Notes under the pieces: model-generated | What the model was told of the DNA's origin: nothing | What the model saw: only the letters and a program-made list of their open reading frames with translations | Databases searched by the model: none | In this document: positions 8,299 to 47,842 of the stretch, piece by piece | Numbering within the stretch: position 1 is the first letter of the stretch | Layout of the letters: each line of letters starts with the position of its first letter | Program-made: the position numbers and the translations under genes | Assembly: GCA_025093985.1 (NCBI GenBank) | Contig: JACAAK010000004.1 | Coordinates: 1,426,001 to 1,490,000, forward strand | DNA from: Calvatia gigantea | Lineage: Eukaryota; Basidiomycota; Agaricomycetes; Agaricales; Lycoperdaceae | Direction: 5' to 3' | DNA length: 64,000 bases

Positions 8299-8303
8299 CT
8301 GTT

Positions 8304-9406
8304 AAAGAGGCAGAAATAGAAATACTAAATGTGATATGGATGTTCGGCTTAGATTAAGCTGACGGAATAGATTTTTAAAGATTTCTGCACAAGGCAAGTT
8401 CGTGGGGAGGCAATCTGACAATATGAGGGACAATTCCACAAAATAACGCGAATCAACGACGCGTGGAGAACACTAGAATAGCTAACTACCTTCGCTAAGA
8501 AGAGTAAAGCCAAGTTACACTGTAAAAAGTGCGACTCGTGTCCTTTATCCAAGAAGTTAACAAGACACAGAACCTCAGGTACTCCCTAAGCTTCACCCTT
8601 ATCAAGTTAACGACCAGAAGCGCACTGTCCTACACTTGTGATACGCCAAGTACCAGGGTGTAGCGATGCAATATGCTCTTAATCTAAGCTCACTTCACGA
8701 GTAAGCCCGAGGTCTTCTTCTTAGATCAAAAGGTCTCAATTCTAGCTCAAGTCACTTAGTCTAGTTAATCTCGAAAGAACTTATTACTTTGCTTCGCTCA
8801 GGCACAATAGATTGCTTTTCACTGCGCTCTGAAGGCTGGGCAATGGCTAGTAGGTTCCTTGCCACGTCCGACACCTCAGAGGGGGTTTATATATTATTTG
8901 GGTGCTCGTTATGACAAGACAATGATTACACAACTAGGAACATATTATCAAGCAAGGTACAAACCGGTAGATTAGATCGCGTGCCAAGAGAGCCGCAACC
9001 TGTTAGATTAGTGAAACATTGGAAATACAGAAGGATTCTGGGTATCCGTTTGTTCCGGGCTGTGTTTTAGCCCGTTCTCTGGGTCTGCATTCTTCTCTAA
9101 ATATGTAGAACATCTAAGATTTCGGACGTCGCGTGAACTGTTCTCCTACGTGTCCCCGTGGATTGTACGTGAACGCGTCCATACGTGTCATTAGTGCTGA
9201 GTGATGTTCGTTAATCTAACAACGGTGGCATTTCCTTGTGAACACGCCGATCAGCCTTTTAGATTAAGCACGTTGGACTTATTTCTCGAGTCTAGACTCA
9301 TTGGAGGGGTCCCGTAGCTCTGTATAGACGCATTGGAATGGTTTTACTGCCTGGTCCAGCCGGAATCACGACTGGTCATATGGTACACTGTTAGAATTGC
9401 TTTTTG
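8304..9406 (-). repeat. Gypsy B 3' LTR, distal (3') portion
   Basis: Nearly identical to 25271-26375 of the 5' LTR; I noticed only isolated differences (TTTTAGCCC against TTTTATCCC near 9065; ACGCATTGG against ATGCATTGG near 9330). It ends abruptly at 9406 inside the LTR (..GCTTTTTG), where Gypsy A sequence begins. The outer end carries the CTGTT target duplication. Confidence 0.88.
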
Positions 9407-11756
9407 CCAGTTTACAATGTCTCCATTTTGTAAGAGGTCACAGAAGATGCTTGTCATCATTCTGGAGAACGTTCCTGGCGAGTTGCTTAGACCAAAGTAC
9501 ATGACCGTAGGTTCAAAGAGCCCTTCATTGGTGAGGAAGGCCGCCTTCCATTCATCTCCCTCTTTGATCCTGACATTGTTGTATCCCCAGATGATGTCCA
9601 GTTTGTTGAAGTACTGTATTTGGCTTTTCCAAGTTTGTCAATTACTTCGCCAATTCTTGGCAACGGAGTTTTATCTTTGACGACCATGTTGTTTAGATGT
9701 CTATAGTCCTGGATCAACCTTTTGGACCTGTCTTTCTTCGGGATAAAGAATGTTGGTGCTGCATATGGGGATTTCGATGGTCGTATTCGTCCTGATTCTA
9801 GGTTTTCCTTGATGAATGACTTGAGTTCATCCTGTTCTTTAACCATCATATTATATGTTCCTGCACTTATTTCCTTTGGGGTGTCTTCCATTAGGATTAT
9901 CTCATGGTCCCATTTGGTTCATTCTGGGAGCTTATCAAACGTCGTTTTGTTGAATAAATGTGTGAATGGTTGTATGTAGTCTGGCAGGTCCTCCAGTTTA
10001 GTCGGGTCTGGTTCGTCTTCTTTTTCCCATAGGTCTTCTGTGGCTGTTATACCTCGCAGTTTTTCAGTGATGGCAATGTTCTGGTGGGGAAATTGGCAAT
10101 CTAGTGGACACTGGGTGAACTTGATTTCTCTGTTGTTCCAGTCTACCTCCGGGTTATGTTTGACCAGCCAATCATGTCCTAGAAAGATCTCTGCTCTGTC
10201 TTGTAGTTGTACGACAGAGGCCTCGATTTGTTCTTTATGTTCCTGGATGTCGATGTTGATTGTTGTGGTTTCTATTACTTTTCCACCTTGGTTGGGCATT
10301 CTGTCTGCATTTAATACCATGATTTGTCATTCCAATTTCCAGGTAGGGAGTCCTTCTTCATCTACTAGTTTTTTGCTGATGCTGCTGGTTGTGCACCCTG
10401 AGTCTACAATGGTGTTGACTGTTATCTCCTTTCCTGCTGTTTGTATTTTTCCTTTTAGATTTAGTTCGTACTTTCTTCTCTGGGGAATTGTGTAGAATTT
10501 GTCTGATATCCTAGATACAAGTTTTTTGACTCTCGAGGTAGCACCTACTCGGAGTCTTCAGAAAAATCCTTTCCTTCTTTGTTGGTAGCTTCCTCTACTC
10601 CCCAGACTTGGATTTTCTTGGATGTGGTACAGGCTTTGGCTATGTGCCCCTTTTTTCTGCAGTTGTAGCATATTAACCCCTTGGGTTTCTTGCAATCTTT
10701 GGCGATGTGGCCAAAAATGCCACAGTTGTAGCACTTGGGTTCTCCTTTGTCGTTGAAGACGTGATGCCTGCTTCCTATCTCCATGGGTTCACCCATCCCC
10801 CCATAAGTGGTGCCAGTGTTCGTTTTTCTGTCTCCTCGGTATTCGGATGCCTCATATCCTTGTCTGATGGACAATATGGCTTCTTTCCATTCTGCATATG
10901 TGTCTGGCCTAGCTAAGGGTGGATAGCCTGTGATCGTATGTATGATGTCTTGTTAGGCATTCTTTCTGAGTAGGAACATAGCGTGCTTGCTGTCAGTCTT
11001 GGCCTTGCTTTTTAGCACCTCGAATTCGATCAAGTAGTCAGCAGTGTTTCAGTTTCCTTGTTTGAATTTTTCAATTTGCCATTCGGCCTTACTGTTTGAG
11101 GCGTCGTCTGAGAAGGTTCTTCTAAATTCCTTGGAGAAGACCTTCCAGTCCACTGAATCTTCAGATTCTAGGATAGCTGGTGCTCTCATAGCTGCGTACG
11201 CTCCTGCAGTTCCTCCTCGCAGTCTGGCTAAAACTGCTATGGCTTTGTCATCTGCTGAGACTATCTTGTTGAATTTCATGAAGAGTGTCATTGCTCTCCA
11301 CCAGTTGTCGAACTTGGTGTGGGTGCCATCGAAAAATCCCGGGTCTGGCACTAGGCCTTTCCCATTGGGCGTTGCTGCAGGCACTACTGCGTTGTCGGTC
11401 ATGTCAGAGTCGGTTTCTGATTCTGTTTCGTCTGAACTTGATTCGTCTGATTTCTCCTAGTGTGCTATCTCTTCCTCTGCTAGCTTCATTTAGAAGTTCC
11501 ACAACACTTCTTCTTCACTGGGTTACTCAGGTTTTCACCGTTTTCAGGTACTTCGGATTCCCTGTTTCTCTTTGTCTGATGTTTCTGATTTGTTGTCAGT
11601 GACTTTGAGGTTTGGTTCTCTGTATTCGTCTGGGTTCGAGCTCATATACTAGCTCCTGGGTTGCTTCTGTTCAGGCCTGTTTCAGCCTACTCCTTGCAAG
11701 GTGAGGTGGGGACGCTTAACCAAATGTTACGACCTTAGTCTGAGTAAACCTCAGAG
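9407..11756 (-). pseudogene. Duplicated piece of Gypsy A (gag, protease, RT start) inside the Gypsy B 3' LTR
   Basis: Matches 26583-28919 almost base for base, in the same orientation and the same reading order: acidic gag N-terminus (near 11600), capsid region VPDPGFFDGTHTKFDNWWRA (near 11340), two zinc knuckles [14 protein letters not shown] and [14 protein letters not shown] (near 10720-10640), protease TIVDSGCTTSSISKKL (near 10400), and RT start to about 9420. It ends within the first about 30 bp of LTR A (11728-11756). It carries extra sequence at its left boundary (GTTTACAATGTCTCC at 9410) that duplicates 8287-8299. Differences from the other copy are mainly transitions plus some small indels, for example an extra TACTGT-like insertion near 9612 and altered text near 11490-11560. 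Confidence 0.9.
10563..10569 (-). promoter_or_regulatory. -1 frameshift heptamer GGATTTT, Gypsy A duplicate
   Basis: Copy of the signal at 27713-27719. The gag frame reads AAG GAT TTT TC.., and the protease frame continues in -1. Confidence 0.6.
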
Positions 11757-11841
11757 TTGCTGCTGGTTGTGCACCCTGAGTCTACAATGGTGTTGACTGT
11801 TATCTCCTTTCCTGCTGTTTGATTTTTCCTTTTAGTTCGTT
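11757..11841 (-). repeat. Re-joined 85-bp fragment of the Gypsy A protease region
   Basis: Sequence GTTGCTGCTGGTTGTGCACC and onwards repeats about 10378-10470 (protease coding strand region) immediately behind the truncated LTR A end, with small deletions in TTTGATTTTTCCTTTTAG. It then changes into Gypsy B LTR sequence at about 11842. The order cannot result from a simple insertion and indicates template switching or repair patching. Confidence 0.8.
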
Positions 11842-12131
11842 CGGGCTTATTTCTCGAGTCTAGAATTTGGGGGATCCCTAGATCAGTATTTTACGACTTC
11901 GGAAGGTTTACTACCGGGTCCGCAGGAAAAACCTGGTCATATGTATGTTAGATAGCTTCTTTCACCAGAGTGGATTCCTAGTGTTCTACAGTGATCGAGT
12001 ACTCTTTTATTATACTGTTGGGCTCTTAGATTAGGTCGTACTACTACAGGAAGGTTTGATGCAATCGTTAGATTAGGCTTGTATGCCTTAGATTAGTGAT
12101 TTTCATGCGTGAAAACGGCTTTGCCGTTACA
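11842..12131 (-). repeat. Gypsy B 3' LTR, proximal (5') portion
   Basis: The stretch 11990-12131 is identical or nearly so to 26427-26577 and ends (minus: starts) with TGTAACGGCAAAGCCG. The stretch 11842-11990 is a clearly diverged version of 26240-26430 (TTATTTCTCGAGTCTAGA kept, the rest drifted), so this half of the LTR looks patched from another family member. It adjoins a polypurine tract at 12132, which fixes it as a 3' LTR. Confidence 0.8.
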
Positions 12132-12145
12132 TCTCCCCCTCACTA
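12132..12145 (-). promoter_or_regulatory. Polypurine tract of Gypsy B
   Basis: On the minus strand AGTGAGGGGGAGA precedes the LTR start TGTAACGG. Position and composition are those of a 3' PPT that primes plus-strand DNA synthesis in LTR retrotransposons. It marks 12131/12132 as the internal/LTR boundary and thereby places both plus-strand genes inside the element. Confidence 0.85.
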
Positions 12146-12636
12146 TAGATGACTGCCCTCAGTCCTCCGTTAAGTCTGACATGATCATTAAGCAACAACT
12201 TTGCTTTCTCTCTGTTTGCTGATCTTTAAGCGCGCACAGAAGCGCCGGGCTCAATCAACTAGAAGTATTTTTATGCTTCACGGTGAAGTCTTCGAGGGAT
12301 GATCTGATTTCACCCTCTTCGACGTCAAGTTCTCCTTTCGGTAACCCTATCACCGTTAGCGGCTAATGCTTCTCGCAGCTGATATCCGCTGTTGCTATCT
12401 TAAGCCTTTCATGGCTGCCTGTTATTCTAAACATTTTTATATGTTTTGTGTGTATCTTAGATACATTCCTCTCGCTAAGTACGATACCGGGTTGTAGAAC
12501 CTCGCTCATCCGTTTTGGACCGTGAGATTAAGAACCCGGCCTTATCACGTTGCGTTAGCTTAACCTTCCCTCGATCGTGCGGTATATAAGAATGGCACAC
12601 GTTTTTTCTTCCTAGTTTCATACATCTATCATCGTT
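12146..12636 (+). promoter_or_regulatory. Upstream region of antisense gene 1 with TATA box
   Basis: About 490 bp without coding signal between the PPT and the first ATG. TATATAAG at 12583-12590 lies 47 bp before the ATG, a plausible core promoter on the plus strand. One TTAGAT motif lies at about 12461. No intron or ORF is evident here. Confidence 0.6.
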
Positions 12637-14856
12637 ATGGCTGCCCCGCACGATTCCAACACAAATCTGGTCACTCCGGCCTCCATTCGCAACAGTCTGG
12701 TGGCTCGTGGATTCAAAGGAGAGGAGTTGGAGAACCGAGTTGCAGAAATGGTGGACATGCTGTGTCCAGGGTGGACGGGTACGCCCCTTTTTTCTTCTCT
12801 GGTGTTCAGTGTGCTAATCTCCGCCTCTAATCTCAGGCGGACCACTACGAGCACCCATGCCACTTATCCGGCCAACGCTCTCATTTATCGCGCCGGCCCC
12901 CACCGTTGGTCTCCAACAGAACGAAACGTTTACGTTCCCTCCCGTTCAGACCTCCTTCGATGCTCCCGGGCCTTCGCTTAGGCCACAGCCCGTTATCTAC
13001 CACCCAGGAACCAGTGCCCGTATTCCTCCAGGCATGCAGGCCGTGACGCTACTGCCAACACCTATTGGTACTTTTCTTTTTTTTTACTCTATCTTGTTAT
13101 TCCTGAGCTGACTTGTGATCTCAGCTGCAACTCAGTCATCGCCGTCTTCTTCTAAGCCAAAGAAGTCCCGGAAACGCGCCGGGAAGGCACGTCATTCATC
13201 TACTTTTAACCGTATTTCTTGTTTGACCATTTATCTAACAGAACCTCGATGTTCCGACCCCAATTTCGGCAGGTCCGTCTGCCTCTACTGACCCTCCAAC
13301 GTCTTCCATGGCGACAGGAGGATCTATTGCAACCAGCTGGCCTTCGCGCATAGCTGCTCCCAAGACTCCCGGTGCCCTTGTCGATGTAAGTCGTTTGATT
13401 TATGACCGTTTTTATCTTAATCTAATTTCATTCATCTAGCCCGCGGCCGCTCGTCTTGCCTTGTTGGCCGCTCAGGCAAAGGCACAGGCTCGGACTCGTC
13501 AACGAGCTACAAACGTGTCACCGGATGACGCCCCACCCAAGAAACGTGCTCGCGAGGCCGTCACGTCGGCCAGGAAGACTCTCACCGCTCCTGCCCTCTC
13601 CGCGTCGTCGTCTGTCTCTACGACGAATTCCTCCAAACCGAAACCTCGCCGGGTGATCCTGAAGATCCCCGTCAGGGAAGAGACAGTAACCGCCCTCCCC
13701 GAGGCCCTTCCGGAGACAATCCGTCCCGCTTCTTCGCCGGTGGGAGAGATTGACGTCGAGGAGGTTGAAGAACCCCCCAGGAACGTTCCGGAGCCTGCAG
13801 AGCCCCGAACCCGTCGTCTCCGTAAGTCTCTTTTCGTCAAATCTTGTCTTTCTTTGCTAATCTAACAGGTGCTGCTCGTCGTACGGACGAGGACCTCGTT
13901 GAGGAGTGCGGCTTGAAGGCGGCCGCCTCCTTCTTTTCTGACGTTGGGCCAGCGTTCTCGCTGCTCAACGCTGAGCCTTATGTGAGTGTTTTTCATACAA
14001 GGTACACCTTAATCTAACACTTTTCTAGGGCAGCGCCGGACAGCTTCAGTGCCTAAACTGCATGAAGCTGTTCTCACCTGACTGCACTCCCGGTGGCAAG
14101 GACCAGGACGGCAAAACTCGCAAGTGCAAGCAATGCCTTGCCCAGAATGCCGCCCACTGTTCGGATACCAAGCCGGCACCTCTCCTTCAGTACCAGGCTG
14201 AAGGTGCTCGACTTCGCTCCCTGACCAGCGACCACTGTAAGTCATTTTTATTCTCTTATCTAAGTGGTTATGTTGGCTGACCAACACTATTTCTTGTTAA
14301 TCTAGACCTCGCCGACCGATTCCGGAACCTGACGGCGGCCCACGCTCAAGTTTTCGGGCTCGAAACTTTCCTGGACATGGCTTACGCGAACTACCACGCC
14401 CTCGTCTACTCGTTTGCGAAGGACATCCAGATCGCGCGTCAACTTCACGGTCGCGAGTCCTCCTTCTGGGTTGAGTCCGGGCTCTGCAAGACCCAAAGCG
14501 ACGCCTCCGACCTGTTCGCCTTCGTCGACGGATTCCTCGACGAAGTCCATGCTTCGGAAGATCCCGATCTCGCTCGCCGGTCTTACTTCACTCACGGCCG
14601 TTTCCTCAACGTGCTGTCTGGTTTGCGCAGGGAGGCACCCAGGACATGGCCTGGCATGCCTCCTACCCTGTCCTTCGCTTCGAAACACGCCGACTTCACC
14701 GATCCCCCCGTCCCTCGTGTCAAGAAGGCCCGCTCCGCCAAATCTAAGGGGAAACAGCGAGCAGCATCGCCCCCTCCTTCCTCGAGCCTGCCTATCAGCG
14801 AGGAGGAGTTCAATTCCGGGGACGACGCGGCGGCGTCTTCTGATTACGAATCCTGA
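12637..14856 (+). CDS. Gypsy B antisense gene 1: 610-aa putative nuclear protein with six-cysteine cluster
   Basis: Eight exons joined from the sequence: 12637-12778, 12837-13067, 13125-13186, 13242-13385, 13440-13821, 13869-13981, 14029-14236, 14306-14856 (1833 nt, one open frame). Introns are short with GT-AG ends, except intron 3, which needs a GC donor (AAG|GCACGT); most carry CTAAC-like branch sites. The product has Lys/Arg-rich stretches (KPKKSRKR near 138; PPKKRAR in exon 5; KKARSAKSKGKQR near the C-terminus), suggesting nuclear import. Residues about 366-402 show C-X2-C-X7-C-X13-C-X2-C-X7-C, close to the Zn2Cys6 spacing of fungal DNA-binding domains but not exact. The C-terminal 180 residues are globular, then an acidic Ser-rich tail. 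I do not recognise the family. It runs opposite to gag-pol, and the intact splice structure argues for function. A captured host gene cannot be excluded. Confidence 0.8.
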
Positions 14857-15514
14857 GGTTCGTGCGGCGTTTTTTCTTGTCATATCTCGAGAGTCTTCGG
14901 AGTAGATACATTACCGTAGTAGTGTATTCCGCTCCCCCAACATCTTGCTAGGTATCTAGGTACATCCTACTTAGATATATGTTTTTTCTTTAGTCTTTCT
15001 GCATCTTTGGGTGATACCCTGGATGCTCAATTCAATCTGCTTGTGCGCGTTTTTGTGTGAATCCATAAATCTTAAATTTTTCCAGAAGTAAGTGTGTGGA
15101 TTCGCCAAAATTTTGTACCATTGCACGTATATTGCACGTCTAGTCAAATCTAAGTCTCTGCAGTACACACTCCCCCCCACTAAAATGGACGGGTGCCCTC
15201 ACCCTTATGCTATCCATTTCAGAGACGTGTGAGAGGTGTCGCTATGGTATGACCTATTTCAAATCTCGGCGACTTTTTGCAATTTCAAAACGTCGCGGCT
15301 CTCATCGTTCAAAATTCGCCAAAAGCAGCCGAATTTTTCATTCTTATCTTACACAGGTTTTTCCGCTAATCTCAAGGTCTTTTTCACCGGCAGTTTGTGC
15401 CGTATTTCTAGATAGACCCTTTTTTGATGTAGCTACATATAATCTAAACGCAGGGAACTTGTACCTCAGTTCTCCTTGCTGTATATCTCGCTAGGATCTC
15501 TTGTCATTCTCTTC
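14857..15514 (+). other. Spacer between the two antisense genes
   Basis: About 660 bp with no convincing gene. It should contain the 3' end of gene 1 and the promoter of gene 2. It carries four TTAGAT/ATCTAA motifs (near 14968, 15145, 15440 and one partial) and a strong purine tract on the minus strand (separate entry). Short ORFs here have no recognisable features. Confidence 0.6.
15167..15179 (-). promoter_or_regulatory. Second, internal polypurine tract
   Basis: Minus strand TTAGTGGGGGGGAGTGTGTA resembles the terminal PPT AGTGAGGGGGAGATGTAAC at 12132. The similarity continues on the other side: plus-strand ACTAAAATGGAC..TGCCCTCAC here against ACTATAGATGACTGCCCTCAG there. It may act as a central PPT or mark an old 3' end of the element; both are inferences. 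Confidence 0.5.
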
Positions 15515-16856
15515 ATGTCTGCTGATACTGTTAACGCTCGTATTGAGCTAGACAATGCGATTAGTACCTTCCAGCACCGATTGCAACATTTTCAGCGTCA
15601 GGAGAGCACACAGGCTTCCGTATTTAATGCTTTGAACGACGCTACTGCCCCAGCCGTAAGTCTTAGATTAGCACCTTCGACCATTGTTGTCGACAGCTAA
15701 CGTGTCTATCCTTTCAGTCTCAGTTCCTTCGTCAACTTTCAGGTGATGCTGCTGGTTTAGAAGACGAGAAGAACGTTAATCTCGTTTTCCGCGCTCGCAA
15801 GATCTTTGAGACCTGGCAGAACGAACATGACAAGGCTTTCAAGATGCCAGAAGTCTACAAGAAACTTCAAGACTTCTGTGCTCAGTACCAGCGCTCCAAA
15901 GCTAAAGCTAAGTCAAGTTCATCTGGACCAGCAAGCCCTGCCGCAACTCCCGCGTCTACGACGACTACTACTGGCTCAGGTCCTCCGACCAAAAAAGTGC
16001 GCAAAATCTTTAATCTAAGTCGATCCGTTGTTATCTCAATAATGTCCGCTAGCGTCGTCGCAGTAAGCAAGTCATTTCGCCCGAGACCGTTGACGACTCT
16101 GACAAAGAGGAGACATCGAGGACCGTAAGTTATTCTGATATCTCCTATTGCCTTAATCTAACGTTGTTTTCGCCACAGGAGACCATGCAAGTTGATGATT
16201 CTGGCCCTCCAGGAACAGCCGTATCCCCTGATGACGACCGAACCAGTAGCGCCATGGTGCTCGAGCCTCAAATCGTCACTACCGCTGTTAACCAGGTGAA
16301 TCATTCTTTCTCCCATCGCCGCAGCACATCGTTCTCAGCTGTGGTTCATCTTGCTTTCTTCATTAATCTTGGTTAGCTATTGCTAAGACTCATTAATCTA
16401 CGCTTGCAGGAGACAGCTGTGGCTGATACTCGTGCTGAGACAGTGTGTATACCTTATGCCTTTGTGCCTGGCTTAGATATCAGCAGTAGCGCTTATAAGC
16501 GAGCCATACAGCTTACTACCGGTGCGAAGCATGTTCATTTTTCGCCTTCCACTCCGGAACAAGGTCAGCTTTTCAGAACACCTTAGTGCGTCCTAGCTGA
16601 TAACCAAATTCCATAAGTTGTGGCTCTAGCAAAGGTCATTGAGCCGTTGACTCTCAAGAATCGCGAGCTCTATGCTCACTATGTCACTCATTGCGAGAGC
16701 GCCATGCTTCAGACTGGTCTCCTTGGTACCAGCTCCGAGTTAATCTCAGCAGCCCAGGCATTGGAAGCTGCTGCTCGCCGCTATGAAGTCTTAGCTAAAC
16801 AGCAGGAACATCTCTTTGTTCAGTTAGAGAAGTTATCCGGCCATTCTGCTTAGATT
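15515..16856 (+). CDS. Gypsy B antisense gene 2: 332-aa putative nuclear protein
   Basis: Six exons reconstructed: 15515-15655, 15718-15996, 16053-16124, 16179-16295, 16410-16563, 16618-16856 (codons to 16853, stop TAG following), giving one continuous frame of about 999 nt; all introns have GT-AG ends. The N-terminus (about residues 5-45) is heptad-like and Gln-rich. Residues 55-105 are charged and helical (FRARKIFETWQNEHDKAFK). A Ser/Pro/Thr linker follows, then the basic stretch KKRRRSK created across the exon 2/3 junction, an acidic region (VDDSDKEE), and a C-terminal Ala/Leu-rich helix likely to form a coiled coil (AAQALEAAARRYEVLAKQQE). No family recognised. It converges on pol (stop near 16970), about 115 bp apart. 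A nuclear partner of gene 1 is a guess from position only. Confidence 0.78.
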
Positions 16857-16969
16857 ACCTCTAGCATTCTTCAATCACCCGTTTTTACTTAGATAGTTTT
16901 TACCCTCAGTTTGTACGCGTTCACGCAAACAGAGTTTTCTATCTTATGATGAAATTCGGTGTGATCACG
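16857..16969. other. Convergent spacer between antisense gene 2 and pol
   Basis: About 113 bp between the stop of gene 2 (plus) and the original stop of pol (minus, about 16970). It must hold the 3' ends of both transcripts. Two TTAGAT motifs occur (near 16851 and 16889). No terminator structure can be named from sequence alone. Confidence 0.5.
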
Positions 16970-19272
16970 TCAGTTCTCGATGTCTGAGTCTGTTAGCTTT
17001 GCCTCTGACTCATCTTCCATGATTAATCTATCCAAACCGTCCTTAGATAGATCAATTAAATGTTCGATTTTCTCGTCCAGCGTTAGCTTAGACCGTGCTA
17101 AGTAAGGTATTACTCTAAAAGCTGCGACCTTATTTTGCTACACGGATCCGTCCAGTTCTGCTAAGATATACGCGCCACCTTTAAGTCGCTGAATCACTAC
17201 CATAGGTCCTAGATACCTTGGCTTCATTTTGCGATCCGCTGACATTTGTATGGCTGAATTCTTAACTAAGACTAACGATCCCGGCTTTAGGTCAAAGTCT
17301 TTTATCTTATATTTCATTTCTTCTTCTAGTTTTAAAGCCCTATTTAACTTTTCATTAGATAGATGTTTTCGCATTTCATCTATGTGGTCTACGTGTTTAG
17401 CTAAGGCCAGTGCTCGTAGACCGATAAGTTCTTCTGTAGATAGGAAACGTTCTGGGTATTTAACTAACCAGGTTGCTTCTATTATATCTAATGGTAACGT
17501 TGGGTGCGCTCCCGTTGCCATGAAGTAAGGCGAACATCCCGTACCCTTTCTTATTGTTATTCTATCAGCCCACATTACATGGTGGAGATACCAGTACCAT
17601 TTTCTGACATCGCCATTTGTGGCCTTATACAGCATTTGTCTAACATCCCAGTGGGGTCTTTCTATTGTCCCGTTAGCTTGTGAGTTGTAGGGAGAGATAG
17701 TGACTCCTTTAATCCCATACTTCTCAGCTAACCAGCCAACTGCTTTCTTAAATGGCGAGCCATTATCCGTGACAATCTTCACAAGACTTCCCCATCTGCA
17801 GACGATATCTTCGAAAAGCCATTGTCCGATAGACTTGGCGTTCTCTTTTCTTAAGGCTCTGGCTTCCATCCAGGATGAAAGTCCACATCGGCCGTGGACA
17901 ATATAACTACAACCGTTTGACGGCGGAGTCATATGTATTGTATCTGCATGTAAGATTTGGAAAAGCAACGGAGTATGCATCACTACCGGTGGCAATTCTA
18001 ATGCCATCTTCTGTCTAACCTGACACAGGTGACATGTCTTCACATACCATGCTATGTCGCCCTCCATTTCTGGCCACCAGAACCTCTGAGCTATGAGCTT
18101 TGTGGTCGCGTACGCTCCTCTGTGCCCTAGCTTATCATGACAAGTTTTCATAATTCTCATCCGATGTTCTTTAGCTAAGACGAGCGCAGGGTTTCCACCA
18201 CTCGCAGACTTCCTGTATAAGCGACCGTCGTCGTCTAGCCAAAAGTGTGAGGCAGCCCTCACAAATTTAGCTTGATCGGTGTCCATTTTACTGATGTCAA
18301 ATCCTTTCGGGTCGTTAGCTAACCATTCCCGGATTCGACTAAGTCGTTTATCTTGCATTTTTGCTGTCTCCGGCCTCCGGTCTTCATTATAGGGTGCCAG
18401 TTCTTCGTCGTCAGGTTCTTTATCTAAGTTTTCTGACTCTAAGGTAGCGACCCTATCTAAGAAAGCGCGGAGCAACTCAGGATATTTTTCCTGGTTAGCT
18501 ATCATGCGTCTGGTCTTTATGTCTTGTTGGGTAGATTCCTTAGCGTTATCTAAGTCGTTTTGGAAGTCTACCAACAGGCTCATTACTTGCTGCATGTAGC
18601 CTGTTCGATTATCTATTTCTTCGTAGAATTCTTCTAAATCTAATGGGTCTTCGTCTTCCAGGTTAGCCTTAGATAGAATAAAGTCATCCCCGTCGTCCTC
18701 AGATCCATCGTCAAAGGCACGTTCTACTGGGTCCCCTGGGTACCAAGGTCTTCTCGAGAGTCCGTCAGGCCCAAAGGCCTTACCTTTCTTATGTACAAGT
18801 TCGAAATGAAAGTTTGTCCATATATAATCTACCCAGCGATTTATCGTCACGTTAGGCAGTCTTCCGGGGTTGTTCAACATTCCAAACAAATACTTAGCAT
18901 CTGTCTCAACGATTAGATTTCGACAACCAGTCAATAGATAAGTCTCTTCTTCTAAGACCATTCTTAGACCGCACAATTCTCGCTTAGGTTGTGAATATCT
19001 CTGTTGTCGTTCGTCCATAAGCAAAGAGTTAAACTTCACATAATGGATTATCTTACGATCTTCCTCATCTCTTTGATAGAGATAATATCCTACTGCTCTC
19101 CAGGACGAGTCAACCGATAGGACTATGGGCTGAGTGCTTGGAAACTTCGGATTTCTAGTATGAAAGCAGTTTTTAATTGCTTCCTTTAGATTATCTTGGG
19201 CTGTCTGCTGTTCAGGTCCCCATTCGAATGCTATATGCATCTTGCACACATTATATAACGGTGCAGCAATTA
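16970..19272 (-). pseudogene. Gypsy B pol, RNase H and integrase half
   Basis: Continuous frame downwards from the Tc1 junction at 19272 to a TAG at 17135-17137, beyond which the same frame runs on ([15 protein letters not shown]..) to a stop near 16970. The TAG most likely replaces TGG. Features in order: RNase H ([17 protein letters not shown] near 19100; [13 protein letters not shown] near 18900), zinc-binding HDKLGH..CHLC (near 18150-18020), integrase core with [15 protein letters not shown] and [16 protein letters not shown] (near 17950-17670), and a basic C-terminal domain ([19 protein letters not shown]). No chromodomain is visible. Apart from the TAG and the Tc1 insertion it is intact, so the damage is recent. 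Confidence 0.92.
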
Positions 19273-20877
19273 CAGTAAGGGACAAAACCGTTCCAATGTT
19301 TTGAACTTTTCAGAAGATCAGCTCATAACTCAAGGACTACTGTGGCTGTGCACTTCCTAATTTAATTGTAGATAGTCCAGTATCTTATCTAATCATATGC
19401 AAAGTATGATTATGTAATCCTTTGTTTTGGGGGAGTTATTAATTAATTAATATTTTAAGTACATTGGAACAGTTTTGTCCCTCTCAAATTCTGAGCACAT
19501 GACTTCGTTTATTGCAATCAAATAAATACAAATAAAATCATGTGACCATGTAGGGTGATGTATAAATGGATGTGCTTATTCTCAGGTGCAAATTAACTCC
19601 CCCACTATACCTTTACAACTATATGCGCTCTCTTTCCTCTACTCAGACCAATAGAGTCCTCTCTTACCTGGACCAAGGGAAATCTGCTCATCATATTGCT
19701 TCTATTACTGGTCTGGGAGTCAGTACTATTTCTAGGATTCGCTCCAAACATAGATCAACACTTTCCAAATCTGTTGGTGGCCGCCCATCTAAACTTTCTC
19801 CCTCTGATATCCACTATTCTGTTCGCCTCATCACCTCTCGCAAGGCTGACAATGCCTCCCAAGTCACCAAATCACTTCAAAATGTTATTGCCCAGCCTGT
19901 ATCCACCAAAACAGTGCGCAGGGCACTCAGAGGAGCTGGAATGAAGGCTGTAGTCAAGCGGAAACGACCTAAACTTACTGCTGTCCATAGGAGGAAAAGG
20001 TTGGAGTGGGCAGAAGCACATGTTAACTGGACCCTGGAGGACTGGAAGAGGGTTATTTGGACAGATGAGTCCAAAATCAATCGGTTTGGATCAGATGGAA
20101 GGGTTTGGGTATGGAAAAAGGCAGGAGAGGGGCTGAATGATAGATTGGTTGAGGGAACAGTCAAGTTTGGTGGAGGAAATGTGATGATCTGGGGTTGTAT
20201 GCTGTGGGATGGAGTGGGGTTTGCCACTAAAATTGAAGGGAAGATGGATGCTGACCTTTATGTTCAAATTTTGGGGGATGAACTAAAGAGGAGCATCAGG
20301 TGGTATGGGAAGAATGAGGAGGATATGGTCTTCCAACAGGACAATGACCCCAAACACAAGAGCAAAAAGGCTACAAACTGGCTAGATGAGTCTGAATTGG
20401 AGGTTATGGTATGGCCCCCACAGTCTCCAGACCTTAATCCCATTGAACATCTCTGGACTCACCTCAAGAATAAGCTGGGAGAGTATGATACTCCTCCTGA
20501 TAGCATGAATACCCTATGGGAGAGGATACAAAAGGAGTGGGATGACATAGAACCAGAAGTGTGTCAGAATCTGATAGAGAGTATGCCTAGGAGGGTCTAG
20601 GCAGTTTTACAGGCCAAGGGAGCTTATACCAGGTACTAGAATACCCATTTTGTATATAAATTTCAAGAGGGACAAAACTGTTCCAATGCACTTAAAATAT
20701 TAATTAATTAATAACTCCCCTAAAACAAAGGATTACATAATCATACTTTGCATATGATTAGATAAGATACTGGACTATCTACAATTAAATTAGGAAGTGC
20801 ACAGCCACAGTAGTCCTTGAGATATGAGCTGATCTTCTGAGAAGTTCAAAACATTGGAACGGTTTTGTCCCTTACTG
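19273..20877 (+). mobile_element. Tc1-like element, copy 1 (1605 bp, complete)
   Basis: Bounded by TA at 19271-19272 and 20878-20879. Ends CAGTAAGGGACAAAACCG and its inverse. The terminal inverted repeats are about 212 bp (19273-19484 and 20666-20877). Each TIR itself starts with GGGACAAAACCGTTCCAATG and finishes with the inverted near-copy CATTGGAACAGTTTTGTCCC. It disrupts Gypsy B pol between the RT and RNase H parts. Practically identical to copies 2 (33827) and 3 (45940). Confidence 0.96.
19566..20600 (+). CDS. Tc1/mariner transposase (copy 1), DD34E
   Basis: 344-residue frame. The N-terminal third has two helix-turn-helix segments (LSYLDQGKSAHHIASITGLG near 40 and a second near 90-125 before KRKRPKL), which bind the TIRs. 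The DDE domain has VIWTDESKINRFG (first Asp near 170), FQQDNDPKHKSK (second Asp near 258) and SPDLNPIEHLW, with 34 residues between second Asp and Glu. This enzyme family cuts and pastes the element into TA sites. The frame ends at a TAG after SMPRRV, where copy 3 reads CAG and continues 12 residues (..QAVLQAKGAYTRY), so copies 1 and 2 share a short C-terminal truncation. Whether that affects activity is unknown. Confidence 0.93.
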   Translation: MDVLILRCKLTPPLYLYNYMRSLSSTQTNRVLSYLDQGKSAHHIASITGLGVSTISRIRSKHRSTLSKSVGGRPSKLSPSDIHYSVRLITSRKADNASQVTKSLQNVIAQPVSTKTVRRALRGAGMKAVVKRKRPKLTAVHRRKRLEWAEAHVNWTLEDWKRVIWTDESKINRFGSDGRVWVWKKAGEGLNDRLVEGTVKFGGGNVMIWGCMLWDGVGFATKIEGKMDADLYVQILGDELKRSIRWYGKNEEDMVFQQDNDPKHKSKKATNWLDESELEVMVWPPQSPDLNPIEHLWTHLKNKLGEYDTPPDSMNTLWERIQKEWDDIEPEVCQNLIESMPRRV

Positions 20878-20879
20878 TA

Positions 20880-22341
20880 TCACAAAGTTCGGAATGTGAT
20901 TCCTACATCTAATGGCTGTCCCCAAGAAAGATCTGGTCTCTGAAGCGTCCTTACAAGCGCCCCATCATAATATAACACCGATGGCGTCTGCTGTCGGTTT
21001 TCTTCCTTTATATGAGCAGTCAAATTCTACAATAGTTATATGATCTGCACATATTGTTGTCTTTGGCCCGGAAAAGGTGCCTCCCGCATATTTCATTCGT
21101 TGTAATATGCAGTTCACCGTGTTCATATGTTCCCATATGAATCGCCTAATGCCCGGGTTCCCTTCTATAACCTCGTAATCACCGTTAGATAACTCGTAAC
21201 GCGTAGGTGGTCCCTGTATAGGCACGTCGTCAATATAGGGGACTGTATGTTCCGGAATTTCATCTGACAATATATAGGTAACGTCGTCATGAAAGATAGG
21301 TACTGAATTAGTCCATCCCATAGGCAACATTACTAATCTAAGGGCTCCGAATGGTGTTTGGAAAGTCGTTAGATCTCTAGACGACTCAGCCAACTGCCTT
21401 TCGTCATACCCTACATATAAATCTAATATGCCGCTACAAGCCCTTCCTGAGAAGTGCATAGCTAATTCTTCTGTTGTGGGCGGCAGACCCGAATGCGCGA
21501 TTGTCACTCTATTTAGAGGCTCTAAGCTATGTACTAGTCTGAGACTCTTTCCGTCTTTCTTAAGTACGCAAAACCATTTAGATCTATAAGACGAATTCGA
21601 GGGCTCATATACCCCTGTGTCTATTTTTCTTTTGATGATTCTACACACTTCGTCATATATCGCTGGGGGAATCCTGAAATGTCTTTCTACCCATGGTATA
21701 TGGGCAATAGTGGGGATCTCTATCGGAGGGAAAAACTCCTCCTTAAATTTGCCCCTTTCAGTATCATCCCAAGCGAACGCTTTATTGTGTTCTGCAATTA
21801 ACCAATGCATTAGCTTTCGCTCCTCGTAAGTCAAGAAGTCCCCAATATGAGCTGCGTCCATCTTGTTTTTCCGTTCTTCGGTATACCTGCCTTTAGATTT
21901 GAAAGTTGGCGGGTTAACCGGCAGGATTGGCAGCTCAGTCAAGGGATCTCCAATTATCTCTCGTTTTATTCTGTATTTGTCTGGTAGTTCTCCCAGTACG
22001 GGTCTCACTTTCAATGCGACTGGTTTATATTTCTTAGCTAAACAAAGAATATGTTCCTCCTCTGTAGGTGGTCCATAGATTTCGTCTAACGCTGTCACTC
22101 TTTGAATAACTCTGCTGGGACTTACAATCTGAGATAAGAACGTAGTAAGTAGTTCTTTATCGCGAGACCGCTGCGTCGCTAAACTCTTCTGTAAGTATAT
22201 TAGATTAACTTCGTCGGAGGTCATAGATTTTACATCAACTGCCAACGTTTCACTAATATATGGTTTATTCTCGTTATCTAAGCTAATTATAAGAGCAACC
22301 TCTCCTTCGATGCCTTTTTCGAAGTCATCGAGGCTACTCAA
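20880..22341 (-). pseudogene. Gypsy B pol, reverse-transcriptase half
   Basis: Read downwards from 22341 (frame entered by -1 shift; the first codon shown is TTG, not ATG): an N-terminal segment, then RT with SSYRSKWFCVLKKDGKSLRL (near 21580), LDLYVGYDERQ (near 21420), FGALRLVMLPMGWTNSVP (near 21330) and the catalytic box PYIDDVPIQGP (near 21230). A single TGA at about 20962 interrupts it (IL*WGACKDASE.., CGA-to-TGA would restore Arg), and the frame then continues to the Tc1 junction at 20879 (ETRSFLG.. connection). Removing the TGA and the Tc1 insertion gives one long pol joined to 19272. Confidence 0.92.
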
Positions 22342-23428
22342 AAATTTTGCTCTTTAATTCGCGGTAATTGGCCTTTAGCGTAAGTAGGCAACGTTGCTCT
22401 ATTCTTTGTATTGGGATCGGTAATGACTATCATTTGTGCTCCTTCAGCAGAATTCACCACTCGACTTTCTGTTAGGACATCGAAAGGTCTGCCTAATAAT
22501 ATTGAGTATGGTGGACTGTCGACTACATGGACCTGTAGATAGACCGTCACGTCTCCGAAGCTAAACGGCACATTCTTAGCTAGACCACAAGTCCGGCTTA
22601 TCTGGCCATTCACACTCTGCATGTTGATAGTCGTGTCTGGATCCCATGTAATTCTACAATCTATCGCCGTATTTCTGGACATGGATACAATTTGTGAACC
22701 ACTATCCAACAAAGCCTCTTCTTCTCTAAGATCGTTTACTAAGGTCGGAATGACTCTTAGTGAAGCCATATCTTTGGCCGTTATAGTCCCATTATTATCT
22801 AAGGAGAATATATGCTTGCCTCTATCTTCCCGAGGTACCGCTTCCAAGTACTGTAGAATAGGATCGGTAATTCTCCAAGTTAGATAGGGACGTCCTTCAG
22901 TGTCCAAAACTTTCTCTGCGACTTTCTCTGGTTTCGCGAGCATTGAGACCTGTACTAAATTAATGACAGGCTCCGCATTTTCCGAATCAGATTCGTCGTC
23001 TTCAATATGCAACGCGTTGTTAGATTTAATTGCTACACGTCTTTTAGCAATTTGGTCTTTGTACTTTTCTCGGAGTTTGGGGGAAATAGCCAATAATTCT
23101 TTGTGAGATAGAGAGACGTCTCCTTTGAGAATTCTCTCTAATATTTTATCTAATTCAACCCCATCCTCAATTTCTGTTTTGTGTTTATATGACGGCTGCT
23201 TTTGTTCGCGCAAGTACTTTGCAGGTACAGGCGGTACTTCTACAACCGGCCTAAGAGATCTAACGTTTTTATAGGGAAAATCGTTGACCTGCTTAGATTT
23301 CGTTGGTTCTGTGTTTTCTTTGTCTTTGGCACTTAGATTAGGATCATCTTCTTTATCGCTCTCCGATTCTGTCTGTTTCCTGGCGGGGACCTTCCGTCCA
23401 GGGGACGGTTTCTTCATTGAACCGCTTA
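22338..23428 (-). CDS. Gypsy B protease domain ORF (pro)
   Basis: Open from the gag/pro frameshift (about 23429) to the TGA at 22338-22340; the first ATG in frame is at 23417. The first 130 residues are charged and low complexity (ESDKEDDPNLSAKDKEN). The aspartic-protease-like core has EEALLDSGSQIVSM (Asp-Ser-Gly, near 22710) and a later YSILLGRPF segment (near 22500) typical of the flap-to-C-terminal part of retropepsins. Overlaps gag upstream and pol downstream, both reached by -1 shifts. No damage seen in this ORF. Confidence 0.85.
22341..22347 (-). promoter_or_regulatory. -1 ribosomal frameshift site AAATTTT (pro to pol)
   Basis: The pro frame reads CAA AAT TTT TGA. A AAT TTT fits the X XXY YYZ slippery pattern, and the stop follows at once. 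In -1 the ribosome continues AAA TTT TTG AGT AGC into the RT frame, which has no ATG at its start. Confidence 0.75.
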
Positions 23429-25240
23429 AAAACCCGACTGATTCTTTTTAGAGCTGTCCTTCTTCTGAGCCAAAGCCAAAATCTTTGCAAGCTGACTGGC
23501 CAGGTCGTCAGAATCGTCTTCTTCATCGGACGCTGGTTCAGGATCTTTAGCTTTGCGTGATTTCGCAGGCTTAGTGCCAGATAGCAATGTTTCAATTGTG
23601 TTAAGGCGGCCTTTTAGATTTTCTAGTTCTAAGCCGCGTCTATCTAACACTTGCTTGCTCTCTTCAATTATACTATCTCTAGTATCTTTAAGTTGGTTTG
23701 TGTAGATGGAAATCTCAGGTGCGCGACCATAAGATTGGTAGGGACCTAGATCAGGTACTTCCTCTTCTTGAGGCAATTCGGGTTGTATGCCTAGGCATAC
23801 CAATAGTGTGTTTGGTAAGTACTTCGCTACGATAGCCTTAATAGACATCCCTTCAATTCTAGGTATGGGTGAGCCGTCCGCAAATCTAAGTTGATTTCCG
23901 TCGACTTTAATTTTTCCATCTTTCACGTCCTGGTCTTTTTCTGGACATGCGAGCCAACGATGCTTTGGATCGAAACAATAGTAGCATCCTCTGCCTATCC
24001 CGGCCGCGGCCTCGTTATTCTGTCTCAGCTGTCCCTGGCCATAGTTTACAGGGTTTGCAGGACGCGTAAATTTTGTCTGCATTGTAGCTTTCATGGAGTC
24101 CATAAAACTCTGCATATTTTTCTGATTAACAGCCAGAGTATCTTTTAGATTAGCGATTTCTTCACGTAAGTCCGACTGCTGCTCAACAGGTTCGCGTTTT
24201 ACTTGCAGTGGTATAGCTCGAGACATAGTCTCCGGATTGTTATCGTATTTTAACGCTTTAGCTATGGTCTTTCCACTGACTAGCTCTACTGCTTTAGCAA
24301 CGACTTCAGTCCAATCATATGGATCTTCGCCTCGGGCCACGCCTCCTGCGCGAGCGCGACTGTTGATACTTAATCTAGTATTCAAGTTCTCTTGGAAGTG
24401 TTTATCTAGACTTCCAACAAACATTTCTACCAGTTCACGGTTCGTTACGAGCGGCGGATTTGTTAGACATTTTTCTGCTTGTAACGAGAACTTCCTCTTG
24501 AAAGCTAAGAGGCGTTCTTTGTCAAACATACTAATGTGTTTGTATTCTCATCCTAATGCTCGTAATCTAGCCACTGAACCTTGTTCTTCTGCTACGAGCT
24601 CCGGATACTCCTGCTTCAAACGATCTTTAAAACCGTTCCAGTCTGGAGTTATATATTCCGGGAAGCTTGTCCATTCATCTCGTACGCTAGGCTCTACATA
24701 GCTAACGGCCCATTTTACTTTATCTTCCATGTCTGTGATACTAGAGACATCGAATAAGTGTTCTAGATGCCATAGGAAGTCTCGGAGTGTAGCTCCTCGA
24801 CCATCCCATACTGGGGCTCCTGTAGCCATAGGGTTTGGCATAGCAGGGCTAGGCATAGTGTTTGGCTGATTTGAGTTCGTTTGAGAGGTAGTTTGGGTCT
24901 GTGGTTGTGCCGGTATTGGCAAGTTTCGCGCTAGATTAGGCAAAGGGTCCACGGAAACAGCAGGATTTACTGTTCGTGAAGTGCGTTTGCGAGCTGAACT
25001 TTCGCCAAGAGTGTCTGAGCATTGAGAACGGCGGGCGTTTCTAAGCAACTGCTCTGGATTATCTAGCTTCGGTAACGGCTCTGTTCTTCTAGAATTTTGA
25101 GTCTCTCGACCTTTGGGTTTTGTTTTGTTCTGTTCTGGTACAGGATGCGAAGTAGCAATCTGTTTTTTATATGCTCCGGGTGGAGGCCCGAAGCTCGTTT
25201 TGAGAACGGTAAAAGGATGTGGAAATAAAGTGGCTCTCAC
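23426..25240 (-). pseudogene. Gypsy B gag (one nonsense codon)
   Basis: Two consecutive same-frame ORFs (25240-24548 and 24544-23426) separated by a TGA at 24548 (ALG*EYKHISMFDKE; CGA-to-TGA would restore Arg). The N-terminal third is Pro/Gln/Asn-rich; the first in-frame ATG I can see is near 24857, and the codon at 25240 is GTG, so the start is uncertain. The capsid region (WDGRGATLRDFLWHLEHLF near 24800; FVGSLDKHFQ near 24415) is followed by a zinc knuckle CYYCFDPKHRWLAC (near 23975), then a charged tail ending in TAA at 23426-23428. Gag packages the element RNA in virus-like particles. Confidence 0.88.
23429..23435 (-). promoter_or_regulatory. -1 ribosomal frameshift site GGGTTTT (gag to pro)
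   Basis: The gag frame reads TCG GGT TTT TAA. G GGT TTT is a canonical X XXY YYZ heptamer placed directly before the gag stop. In -1 the frame runs GGG TTT TTA AGC GGT TCA ATG into the protease ORF. Confidence 0.78.
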
Positions 25241-25250
25241 ACTGAAACTC

Positions 25251-25268
25251 CCCTCGCGGTGGGCTCCA
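25251..25268 (-). promoter_or_regulatory. Primer binding site of Gypsy B
   Basis: On the minus strand, two bases after the LTR end, TGGAGCCCACCGCGAGGG starts with the TGG complementary to a tRNA 3' CCA end. I cannot name the tRNA without a tRNA set. Confidence 0.7.
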
Positions 25269-25270
25269 GA

Positions 25271-26577
25271 TAAAGAGGCAGAAATAGAAATACTAAATGT
25301 GATATGGATGTTCGGCTTAGATTAAGCTGACGGAATAGATTTTTAAAGATTTCTGCACAAGGCAAGTTCGTGGGGAGGCAATCTGACAATATGAGGGACA
25401 ATTCCACAAAATAACGCGAATCAACGACGCGTGGAGAACACTAGAATAGCTAACTACCTTCGCTAAGAAGAGTAAAGCCAAGTTACACTGTAAAAAGTGC
25501 GACTCGTGTCCTTTATCCAAGAAGTTAACAAGACACAGAACCTCAGGTACTCCCTAAGCTTCACCCTTATCAAGTTAACGACCAGAAGCGCACTGTCCTA
25601 CACTTGTGATACGCCAAGTACCAGGGTGTAGCGATGCAATATGCTCTTAATCTAAGCTCACTTCACGAGTAAGCCCGAGGTCTTCTTCTTAGATCAAAAG
25701 GTCTCAATTCTAGCTCAAGTCACTTAGTCTAGTTAATCTCGAAAGAACTTATTACTTTGCTTCGCTCAGGCACAATAGATTGCTTTTCACTGCGCTCTGA
25801 AGGCTGGGCAATGGCTAGTAGGTTCCTTGCCACGTCCGACACCTCAGAGGGGGTTTATATATTATTTGGGTGCTCGTTATGACAAGACAATGATTACACA
25901 ACTAGGAACATATTATCAAGCAAGGTACAAACCGGTAGATTAGATCGCGTGCCAAGAGAGCCGCAACCTGTTAGATTAGTGAAACATTGGAAATACAGAA
26001 GGATTCTGGGTATCCGTTTGTTCCGGGCTGTGTTTTATCCCGTTCTCTGGGTCTGCATTCTTCTCTAAATATGTAGAACATCTAAGATTTCGGACGTCGC
26101 GTGAACTGTTCTCCTACGTGTCCCCGTGGATTGTACGTGAACGCGTCCATACGTGTCATTAGTGCTGAGTGATGTTCGTTAATCTAACAACGGTGGCATT
26201 TCCTTGTGAACACGCCGATCAGCCTTTTAGATTAAGCACGTTGGACTTATTTCTCGAGTCTAGACTCATTGGAGGGGTCCCGTAGCTCTGTATAGATGCA
26301 TTGGAATGGTTTTACCGCCTGGTCCGGCCAGAATCACGACTGGTCATATGGTACACTGTTAGAATTGCTTTTTGTTAAGCACAGTGGTCATCCCGTAGCC
26401 GCCGCTATCCGTCATCAATGGTCATAGTGTTCTACAGTGATCGAGTACTCTTTTATTATACTGTTGGGCTCTTAGATTAGGTCGTACTACTACAGGAAGG
26501 TTTGATGCAATCGTTAGATTAGGCTTGTATGCCTTAGATTAGTGATTTTCATGCGTGAAAACGGCTTTGCCGTTACA
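25271..26577 (-). repeat. Gypsy B 5' LTR (complete, about 1307 bp)
   Basis: Minus strand TGTAACGGCAAAGCCG..CCTCTTTA. Holds a TATATAAA box (25854-25861, minus) and 11 copies of TTAGAT/ATCTAA. The end at 25271/25272 is set by agreement of three copies (5771-5775, 8303-8310, 25271-25278). The LTR does not end in the usual CA, which is odd for this class, so the last one or two bases are uncertain. Confidence 0.9.
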
Positions 26578-26582
26578 CTGTT

Positions 26583-28889: not shown

Positions 28890-29197
28890 TGTTACGACCT
28901 TAGTCTGAGTAAACCTCAGGTTGCAACTTAGGCTAAGACTTGAGGGCGAGTAAGGGAAGAGAAACTAGGTGGTTAAGCGTACCGAATACAGAAGTATGTA
29001 TGTACACTTAAATACAGAAGGGAGCATCCAGTTGAATGGATGGAGGTAACTACATGAAACGTCCAATGACTATGGCATAGTAGTTATGAGTCAGGATTCG
29101 GGGATCATGCAGGCAGGAATAACTGAAACAGGTACATGACAAGAGGGAATACAGATAAGTGTGGAGCTGACATGAAAATAGACTAATGTTCACAACA
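28890..29197 (-). repeat. Gypsy A 5' LTR
   Basis: 308 bp, minus strand TGTTGTGAACATTAG..GGTCGTAACA, matching 3914-4221. A PBS lies two bases inside. The outer flank is the target duplication CTTCT (29198-29202). A TATTTAAG-like promoter box lies on the minus strand near 29010. Confidence 0.92.
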
Positions 29198-33620: not shown

Positions 33621-33826
33621 AAGATGATGGTCTAGAATATGTCAATTACCCTTACTCCAATCCTGATGATGGTGGAGGCAATGGACCTGGAGATGATAAC
33701 TCACCTGAAGAACCATCAGATAATGATGACAATGGTGACGATGAAGCAAGCACTAGCAAGCCGCACAGCTATTGGGAACTTGATCACCCTCTAGTCCATA
33801 CTATTAGATCCCTCACTAATGCTATA

Positions 33827-35431: not shown

Positions 35432-35612
35432 TAGATAATCGTGTCTGCTCTCAGCTGCCTCAGCCTCCTTGACCTCCCTGTACTAAGGCCTGTGAACCCA
35501 AACCATTCAGTGGTGCCAACTCCAATGACCTTTCCCACTTTCTTTTCCAATGTCAACTCTATTTCCATGCTAACCCCACACAATTCACATCTGATACTAC
35601 CAAGGTCTTGCC

Positions 35613-45616: not shown

Positions 45617-45939
45617 TCTAGCACTGTCTGGAGCACTCCTGACAATAACATCACAGTTGGCCCCAACCATAGACAGCTTCTCATGACAGTAGTAGTGGTC
45701 TCTAAAAACTCTCCTTACCCTCTCACATACACACTTGTTGAGACTATCAACTGGGGACTTGTTCAGGCTTGGGTCTACTGTAGGATCAAGTCTATTTGTT
45801 CAAGCACTGGCAATACATGGTCAGTACTCACCAACTTCACTTCCACCCCCAAGAATATTGCTATTATTGATGAGTGGGCACATAAAGTGGTAACTGAGGG
45901 AGTTAAGCTCCAGTTCTGCATACCTGACTCAACATCTTA

Positions 45940-47544: not shown

Positions 47545-47842
47545 TATATCAGGGTCATAGATGTCCCCTTCATTGATGAGTAGGGCCATAAGGCCATGAC
47601 CATTGAGAAGTTTTTTAACTACTTATCAAGGTCACCCTACCAGAAGGATTTTGCCATGTTGGCTTACACCCTACATATATCACACAACTCTACCAGCTCT
47701 GACACATGCACTGTTTGGCTTGACCTCACCGACTCCAAGTCAGGCACTCAGATGAAACATCTCATAGGATGTACTACCCAGATTGGAACCCACTCCTGCT
47801 ATATTTAGCAGGCTTCCACCTGTACAGGGATTCTCTGGTGCC

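Follow-up and report, generated by a model that had tools for sequence, protein, structure and literature searches.

A pair of spliced antisense genes carried between pol and the 3' LTR of a Gypsy retrotransposon in Calvatia gigantea

The DNA analysed here (hereafter the window) is a stretch of 64,000 nucleotides of the basidiomycete Calvatia gigantea (assembly GCA_025093985.1, contig JACAAK010000004.1, positions 1,426,001 to 1,490,000), in which a minus-strand Gypsy long terminal repeat (LTR) retrotransposon occupies positions 8303-26577, flanked by the 4-bp target-site duplication CTGT (8299-8302 and 26578-26581). Inside this element a block of 4.8 kb (12132-16969), with two plus-strand genes, g1 (12637-14856) and g2 (15515-16853), separates pol from the 3' LTR. 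A previous sequence-only reading of the window had placed two spliced antisense genes at this site, and the open frames, the polypurine tract (PPT), the LTR and the duplications described here bear it out. Its exon numbers, 8 for g1 and 6 for g2, and its g1 length of 610 residues also hold, but g2 encodes 328 amino acids and not the 332 codons it had counted.

The eight exons of g1, separated by seven introns, lie on the plus strand at 12637-12778 (with the ATG), 12837-13067, 13125-13186, 13242-13385, 13440-13821 (with the basic stretch PPKKRAREA), 13869-13981, 14029-14236 and 14306-14856 (with the stop). Exon 7 contains a cysteine cluster (14050-14160, plus strand, residues 366-402) of the form C-X2-C-X7-C-X13-C-X2-C-X7-C, its six cysteines complete in 11 of 14 other rows of aligned copies. 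This cluster had been called Zn2Cys6-like, a label that we do not retain, the spacing of that family (PF00172) being C-X2-C-X6-C-X5-12-C-X2-C-X6-8-C and the g1 cluster having no Pfam match. The six exons and five introns of g2 follow on the same strand, with exons at 15515-15655 (ATG), 15718-15996 (at the end of which a basic KKRRRSK stretch begins), 16053-16124, 16179-16295, 16410-16563 and 16630-16853 (stop). Eleven of the 12 introns are GT-AG; the remaining one, intron 3 of g1, is GC-AG, and its sites are kept in 12/12 covering rows. A degenerate branch-site motif has a match upstream of the acceptor in 12/12 introns, a count made without a chance control. The spliced frames have no internal stop, whereas the other two forward frames have 10 and 14 in g1 and 8 and 27 in g2, and of 2000 strings made by shuffling the exon bases none was free of stops for either gene; the gene models are thus not a product of chance. 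Exon lengths are the same in all nine full copies for g2 and in six of nine for g1, and no paralogy between the two genes was detectable.

Candidate core promoters are found for both genes, TATATAAG at 12583-12590 (plus strand), about 50 bp before the g1 ATG, and TATAA at 15438-15442 (plus strand), about 70 bp before that of g2. Since these TATA-like boxes are kept in 12/12 and 15/16 rows, respectively, g1 and g2 are likely to have promoters of their own inside the block. A second PPT-like purine run lies between the genes on the minus strand (15170-15179, a C-run on the plus strand) and is uninterrupted in 13/16 rows. It may represent a central PPT, or else a trace left by stepwise growth; that it marks a build-up of the block in two steps is a guess.

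The position of the block within the element, which the sequence-only reading had deduced from the PPT and the adjoining LTR, is confirmed. The PPT, minus-strand GAGGGGGAGA at 12132-12141, adjoins the 3' LTR, which starts with TGTAACGG at 12131 on the minus strand. It is found at this place in all 12 rows extending that far, with a single change in one of them, and in 7/7 copies printed with their LTR it directly adjoins the LTR end. On the other side, the 3' part of pol (16970-19272, minus strand), with RNase H and the integrase zinc-binding domain (PF17919/PF17917/PF17921), ends where the block begins. In the window copy pol has a premature in-frame stop at 17138, 56 codons early and absent from the sequence-only reading, but in 6/8 other copies read the frame continues as far as a stop that corresponds to window position 16970, the end coordinate of that reading; of the remaining two, one has an earlier stop and in one no anchor was found.

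The block is not peculiar to this insertion. The host genome holds nine near-full block copies, the window copy included, plus fragments, and all 17 pol 3' ends of this Gypsy family that were found adjoin block DNA when compared by hand, so that the genes recur with the same pol lineage, as the sequence-only reading would have it. This number is a lower bound, since 62 of 1159 first-look candidates were scored and further ends may exist; it comprises 16 matches of at least 72% identity reaching the last query residues and one copy (C45) with the pol end in another frame, rows at 32-46% identity being excluded as other Gypsy families. The incomplete blocks can be put down to the end of a contig, to truncation or to insertion. 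Matching 4-bp duplications lie outside the LTRs in 6/8 copies with both ends examined; the other two have, respectively, a truncated LTR and no duplication match at the chosen ends. Five copies have LTR pairs of 98.6-99.6% identity (one value covering just 515 bp) and three have pairs of 91.7-93.7% (two values covering just about 0.5 kb), and from these young and old pairs it follows that transposition of the block is recent as well as long-standing. The distances between copies run in parallel for g1, g2 and pol, with correlations of 0.96-0.97 (21 pairs, seven copies). The block thus moves with the element. One old copy (L027, 5763-9729) bears a tandem duplication of about 2 kb covering parts of g2 and the pol end.

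Selection was assessed between copies within this one genome, as the ratio of nonsynonymous to synonymous changes (N/S) relative to expectation, with CpG sites removed unless stated otherwise. In the five copies tabulated, 47-63% of the differences to the window copy fall at CpG and 88-96% are transitions, a decay which suggests cytosine methylation of element copies. Among non-CpG changes shared by at least two rows, g1 has 65/64 against an expected 89.2/39.8 (ratio 0.45; 0/5000 draws as low) and g2 has 19/24 against 29.5/13.5 (ratio 0.36, p 0.0006), compared with 22/42 against 45.8/18.2 (ratio 0.21) for the integrase part of pol. When the same sites are read in shifted frames no depletion is seen, with ratios of 1.17 and 1.92 for g1, 1.02 and 4.56 for g2 (that is, 1.02-1.92 in three of these four readings) and 3.16 and 3.61 for pol. 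Non-CpG singletons are likewise depleted in g1 (0.52), and the value for pol is 0.54.

Other observations weigh partly against such constraint and partly for it. Once CpG sites are put back, the ratios at shared sites come to only 0.76 for g1 (p 0.0024) and 0.74 for g2 (p 0.026), that of pol being 0.61. The ratio for non-CpG singletons of g2 is 0.81 (p 0.20), which is no clear depletion, and unpartitioned pairwise N/S, a measure of little informative value here, spans 0.49-1.23 for the two genes. On the side of constraint, non-CpG differences are fewer at 0-fold than at 4-fold sites in g1 (3.79% vs 9.19%), g2 (2.67% vs 7.22%) and pol (2.0% vs 7.05%), but 4-fold sites also exceed introns (4.84%; intergenic DNA 5.14%), so base composition may explain part of this contrast, and 0-fold divergence in g1 is little below that of introns. 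Indels, too, speak for constraint, exons having 0.56 events per kb against 2.23 for introns and 4.34 for the DNA between the genes, although several of the 21 exon events are ends of truncated rows. An open frame with canonical splice sites is retained in only 3/9 full copies for g1 and 5/9 for g2, a loss to be expected if copies decay once they have inserted. Raw exon divergence can also top that of introns (in copy C23a, 8.5% for g1 and 3.5% for introns); we rejected this excess as a sign of absent constraint because 47-63% of the differences are at CpG. Taken together, the comparisons agree on protein-level purifying selection on both g1 and g2, weaker than on pol, and the selection that the sequence-only reading had argued from open frames is therefore found for both genes.

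The remaining parts of the element are those of a Ty3/Gypsy LTR retrotransposon, with LTRs, a PPT and a 4-bp duplication, and with PF13650, PF17917/PF17919 and PF17921 above their cut-offs; the RVT_1 match in the gag-pol segments is below its own. The 5' LTR (25271-26577, minus strand) measures 1307 bp, the LTR length in other copies. The 3' LTR of the window copy is divided by an insert of 2.57 kb (9407-11975), a feature absent from the sequence-only reading and from the 3' LTR of four other young copies, into a distal part (8303-9406, minus strand, 99.5% identity to 25271-26374) and a proximal part (11976-12131, minus strand, 99.4% identity to 26422-26577). Within the insert, 9426-11760 is 97.6% identical to 26581-28924, the DNA flanking the 5' LTR, so the Gypsy element has a repeat copy as its surroundings and another copy of that repeat within its LTR. 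The LTR termini are TG...TA and not TG...CA, and the duplications are of 4 bp. A candidate primer-binding site (PBS), TGGAGCCCACCGCGAGGG at 25251-25268 (minus strand), is proposed from sequence only; its 16-mer occurs at 33 genomic places at no more than one mismatch, and ARAGORN, run at six of these genomic matches, found no tRNA in five and a doubtful, unassigned one in the sixth. Reverse transcriptase, protease and gag-like regions (20965-25321, minus strand) form four stop-to-stop segments, the frame being broken in the window copy. An inverted-repeat element of 1.6 kb (19271-20879) is inserted in pol of the window copy and is not at that site in the other copies compared. Three copies of this 1609-bp element, 99.8-100% identical, lie in the window (19271-20879, 33825-35433 and 45938-47546), and others within further copies of the Gypsy family. 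With its 214-bp inverted ends and a stop-to-stop open reading frame (ORF) of 344 amino acids, it looks like a recently active DNA transposon.

The sequence-only reading regarded g1 and g2 as residents of the element and not of a host locus, and no single-copy host locus was seen for either in protein searches of the genome with g2 and a 252-aa part of g1. The matches lie in element copies, apart from one diverged g2 fragment in an element-dense locus, and an origin from a host locus visible in this genome was rejected. The fragment (L018, 4521-5171; G000:C23), 74% identical in DNA and 84% identical over 45 residues, has a DNA transposon on one side and pol pieces of the same Gypsy family on the other, and is perhaps a remnant of a block lineage that has diverged further. 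Pfam returned no family for g1 at E up to 1 and three names for g2, all below cut-off, and PDB sequences gave one chance-level match for g1 (E 0.53) and none for g2. In the protein database no match was found for g1 (residues 330-560 scored, E up to 0.001) or g2 (E up to 1) among candidates of 0.55-1.75 times the query length, a range in which exon-sized gene calls could not appear. The same database has close relatives of pol, the best at 84% identity among the 120 of 402 matches listed, and the only organism named among these 120 is Agaricus bisporus var. burnettii, with a relative at 69%. Given both the length limit and these pol relatives, the non-matches of g1 and g2 are weak evidence of absence. 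Viral contigs (searched with pol and g1 exon 8) and prokaryote contigs (searched with pol) gave no relative, or one match of 32 residues that was taken for chance.

A sister Gypsy family in the same genome allows a comparison with an element lacking the block. Its copy at C6:1057633, with 39% pol identity and the same PBS 16-mer, has a 710-bp stretch identical at both ends which starts no more than two bases from the end of the pol ORF; in this one copy inspected the LTR begins at the pol end, which leaves no space for a block. For a family with 46% pol identity, the 6 kb after pol of one copy, where the LTR was not delimited, showed no similarity to g1 or g2 below E 4. Judging from these sequences, the block would so be a gain in the family bearing g1 and g2 or a loss in the sister family.

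That the two genes are functional, element-borne accessory protein genes is in our view very probable, a confidence that does not extend to their role. Other explanations were weighed against it. Host genes might have been captured and hitch-hike without serving the element: the introns, the TATA-like boxes and the cysteine cluster resemble those of ordinary fungal genes, and extra ORFs are known to arise by transduction of host genes, according to passages of a review (PMC7264820). We nevertheless hold capture to be highly unlikely, the genome offering no clear host locus outside element copies and purifying selection between copies being unexpected for mere passengers. The functional product could instead be an antisense RNA, for instance in double-stranded RNA control of the element, given that the block runs antisense to the genomic RNA over its entire length and that retroelements can have antisense transcripts which work as RNA, a point discussed in the same review (PMC7264820). 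To this we assign a very small probability, because the constraint tracks codons: 0-fold sites diverge less than 4-fold sites, the depletion is frame-specific and indels are about four times rarer in exons than in introns.

It is also scarcely probable that the block is a separate mobile element or gene pair which became nested in one ancestral copy and has merely been carried since. Stepwise growth is hinted at by the second PPT-like run between g1 and g2, and the inspected sister-family copy is without the block; against this, the block is not bordered by terminal inverted repeats (of two inverted pairs seen, both short and weak, neither is at an end), the block DNA listed accompanies pol or LTR of the family within the flanks fetched, the C23 fragment of g2 excepted, and selection acts on the block inside the element.

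Antisense accessory genes as such are not new to LTR elements. In plants they are known as additional ORFs (aORF-3R) of Gypsy elements, namely Retand, Grande (gene23) and RIRE2, as described in passages of PMC11963269, and some plant antisense genes yield nuclear proteins according to the review mentioned above (PMC7264820, in part). Unlike the plant Retand/Tat antisense ORFs, g1 and g2 have no match to TRP28 (PF04195) or any other Pfam family, and they are two genes with seven and five introns in a fungal host; the main text of the Retand paper has no word beginning with 'intron'. A closer likeness is brtn of Boty in Botrytis cinerea, a single extra gene that a fungal Gypsy element carries in antisense (passages of PMC7264820, PMC8365987 and PMC4227169), whose family of Boty-like elements carries a chromodomain in gag-pol (PMC4227169, in part). 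Boty thus shares with the present element an antisense extra gene, but has one gene, an ascomycete host and a chromodomain, in contrast to two genes here. No chromodomain was among the Pfam matches of the five gag-pol segments of the window copy, a scan that ended short of the extreme pol C-terminus. With HBZ of HTLV-1 and other retroviral antisense genes, too, an LTR element has an antisense gene whose protein functions in the nucleus (passages of PMC11963269 and PMC7264820), a likeness in working only, and the HTLV antisense promoter is in the 3' LTR whereas the TATA-like boxes of g1 and g2 are in the internal region. LTR elements of bdelloid rotifers also carry extra ORFs beyond gag-pol (PMC5408684, in part). 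The sequence-only reading knew of no fungal pair with introns, and none appeared in the titles, abstract openings and passages of the literature within our scope, most subscription papers lying outside it; the single fungal antisense gene brtn was, however, already described. The main text of a 2011 survey of fungal LTR elements has no words beginning with 'antisense' or 'intron' (PMC3248453). The kind of arrangement is known, and what sets the present case apart is the tandem pair, its 12 introns, the selection measured within one genome, the block-free sister and the lack of relatives within the limits of the searches.

Returning to g1 and g2 as accessory protein genes, the block would be a resident accessory module of its Gypsy family, with two genes on the strand opposite to gag-pol. 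Their introns would outlast retrotransposition, the genomic RNA of the element being the other strand. The mRNAs of g1 and g2 would be spliced in the nucleus, and the basic stretches of both proteins, together with the cysteine cluster of g1, suggest that these may go back there. A nuclear role is likeliest because of these basic stretches, this cluster and the nuclear proteins of some plant antisense genes, but for g1 and g2 themselves the nuclear or regulatory link consists of motifs only, which counts against it. We tentatively propose, with somewhat less than even confidence, that they might target the chromatin or the LTR of their own element, either to regulate transcription or to counter silencing. 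The setting would be a host in which element copies decay mainly by CpG transitions, and an anti-silencing role would fit this decay.

In reviewed passages on LTR elements antisense accessory genes are known, yet their function is called unknown (PMC7264820). The present family offers a compact test system, in that selection on its two proteins can be measured, both frames are open in young copies and a sister copy is free of the block, and it illustrates how multi-intron genes are kept by an LTR element through placement on the strand absent from its own RNA. More doubtful, and offered as a speculation, is that one fungal Gypsy lineage acquired an antisense, intron-bearing two-protein module for self-protection against silencing by cytosine methylation, or as an LTR switch. 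Regulators would then be made from spliced mRNAs while the genomic RNA is kept unspliced, and, if this is true, the sister family without the block, which shares the nucleus, would serve as a natural control.
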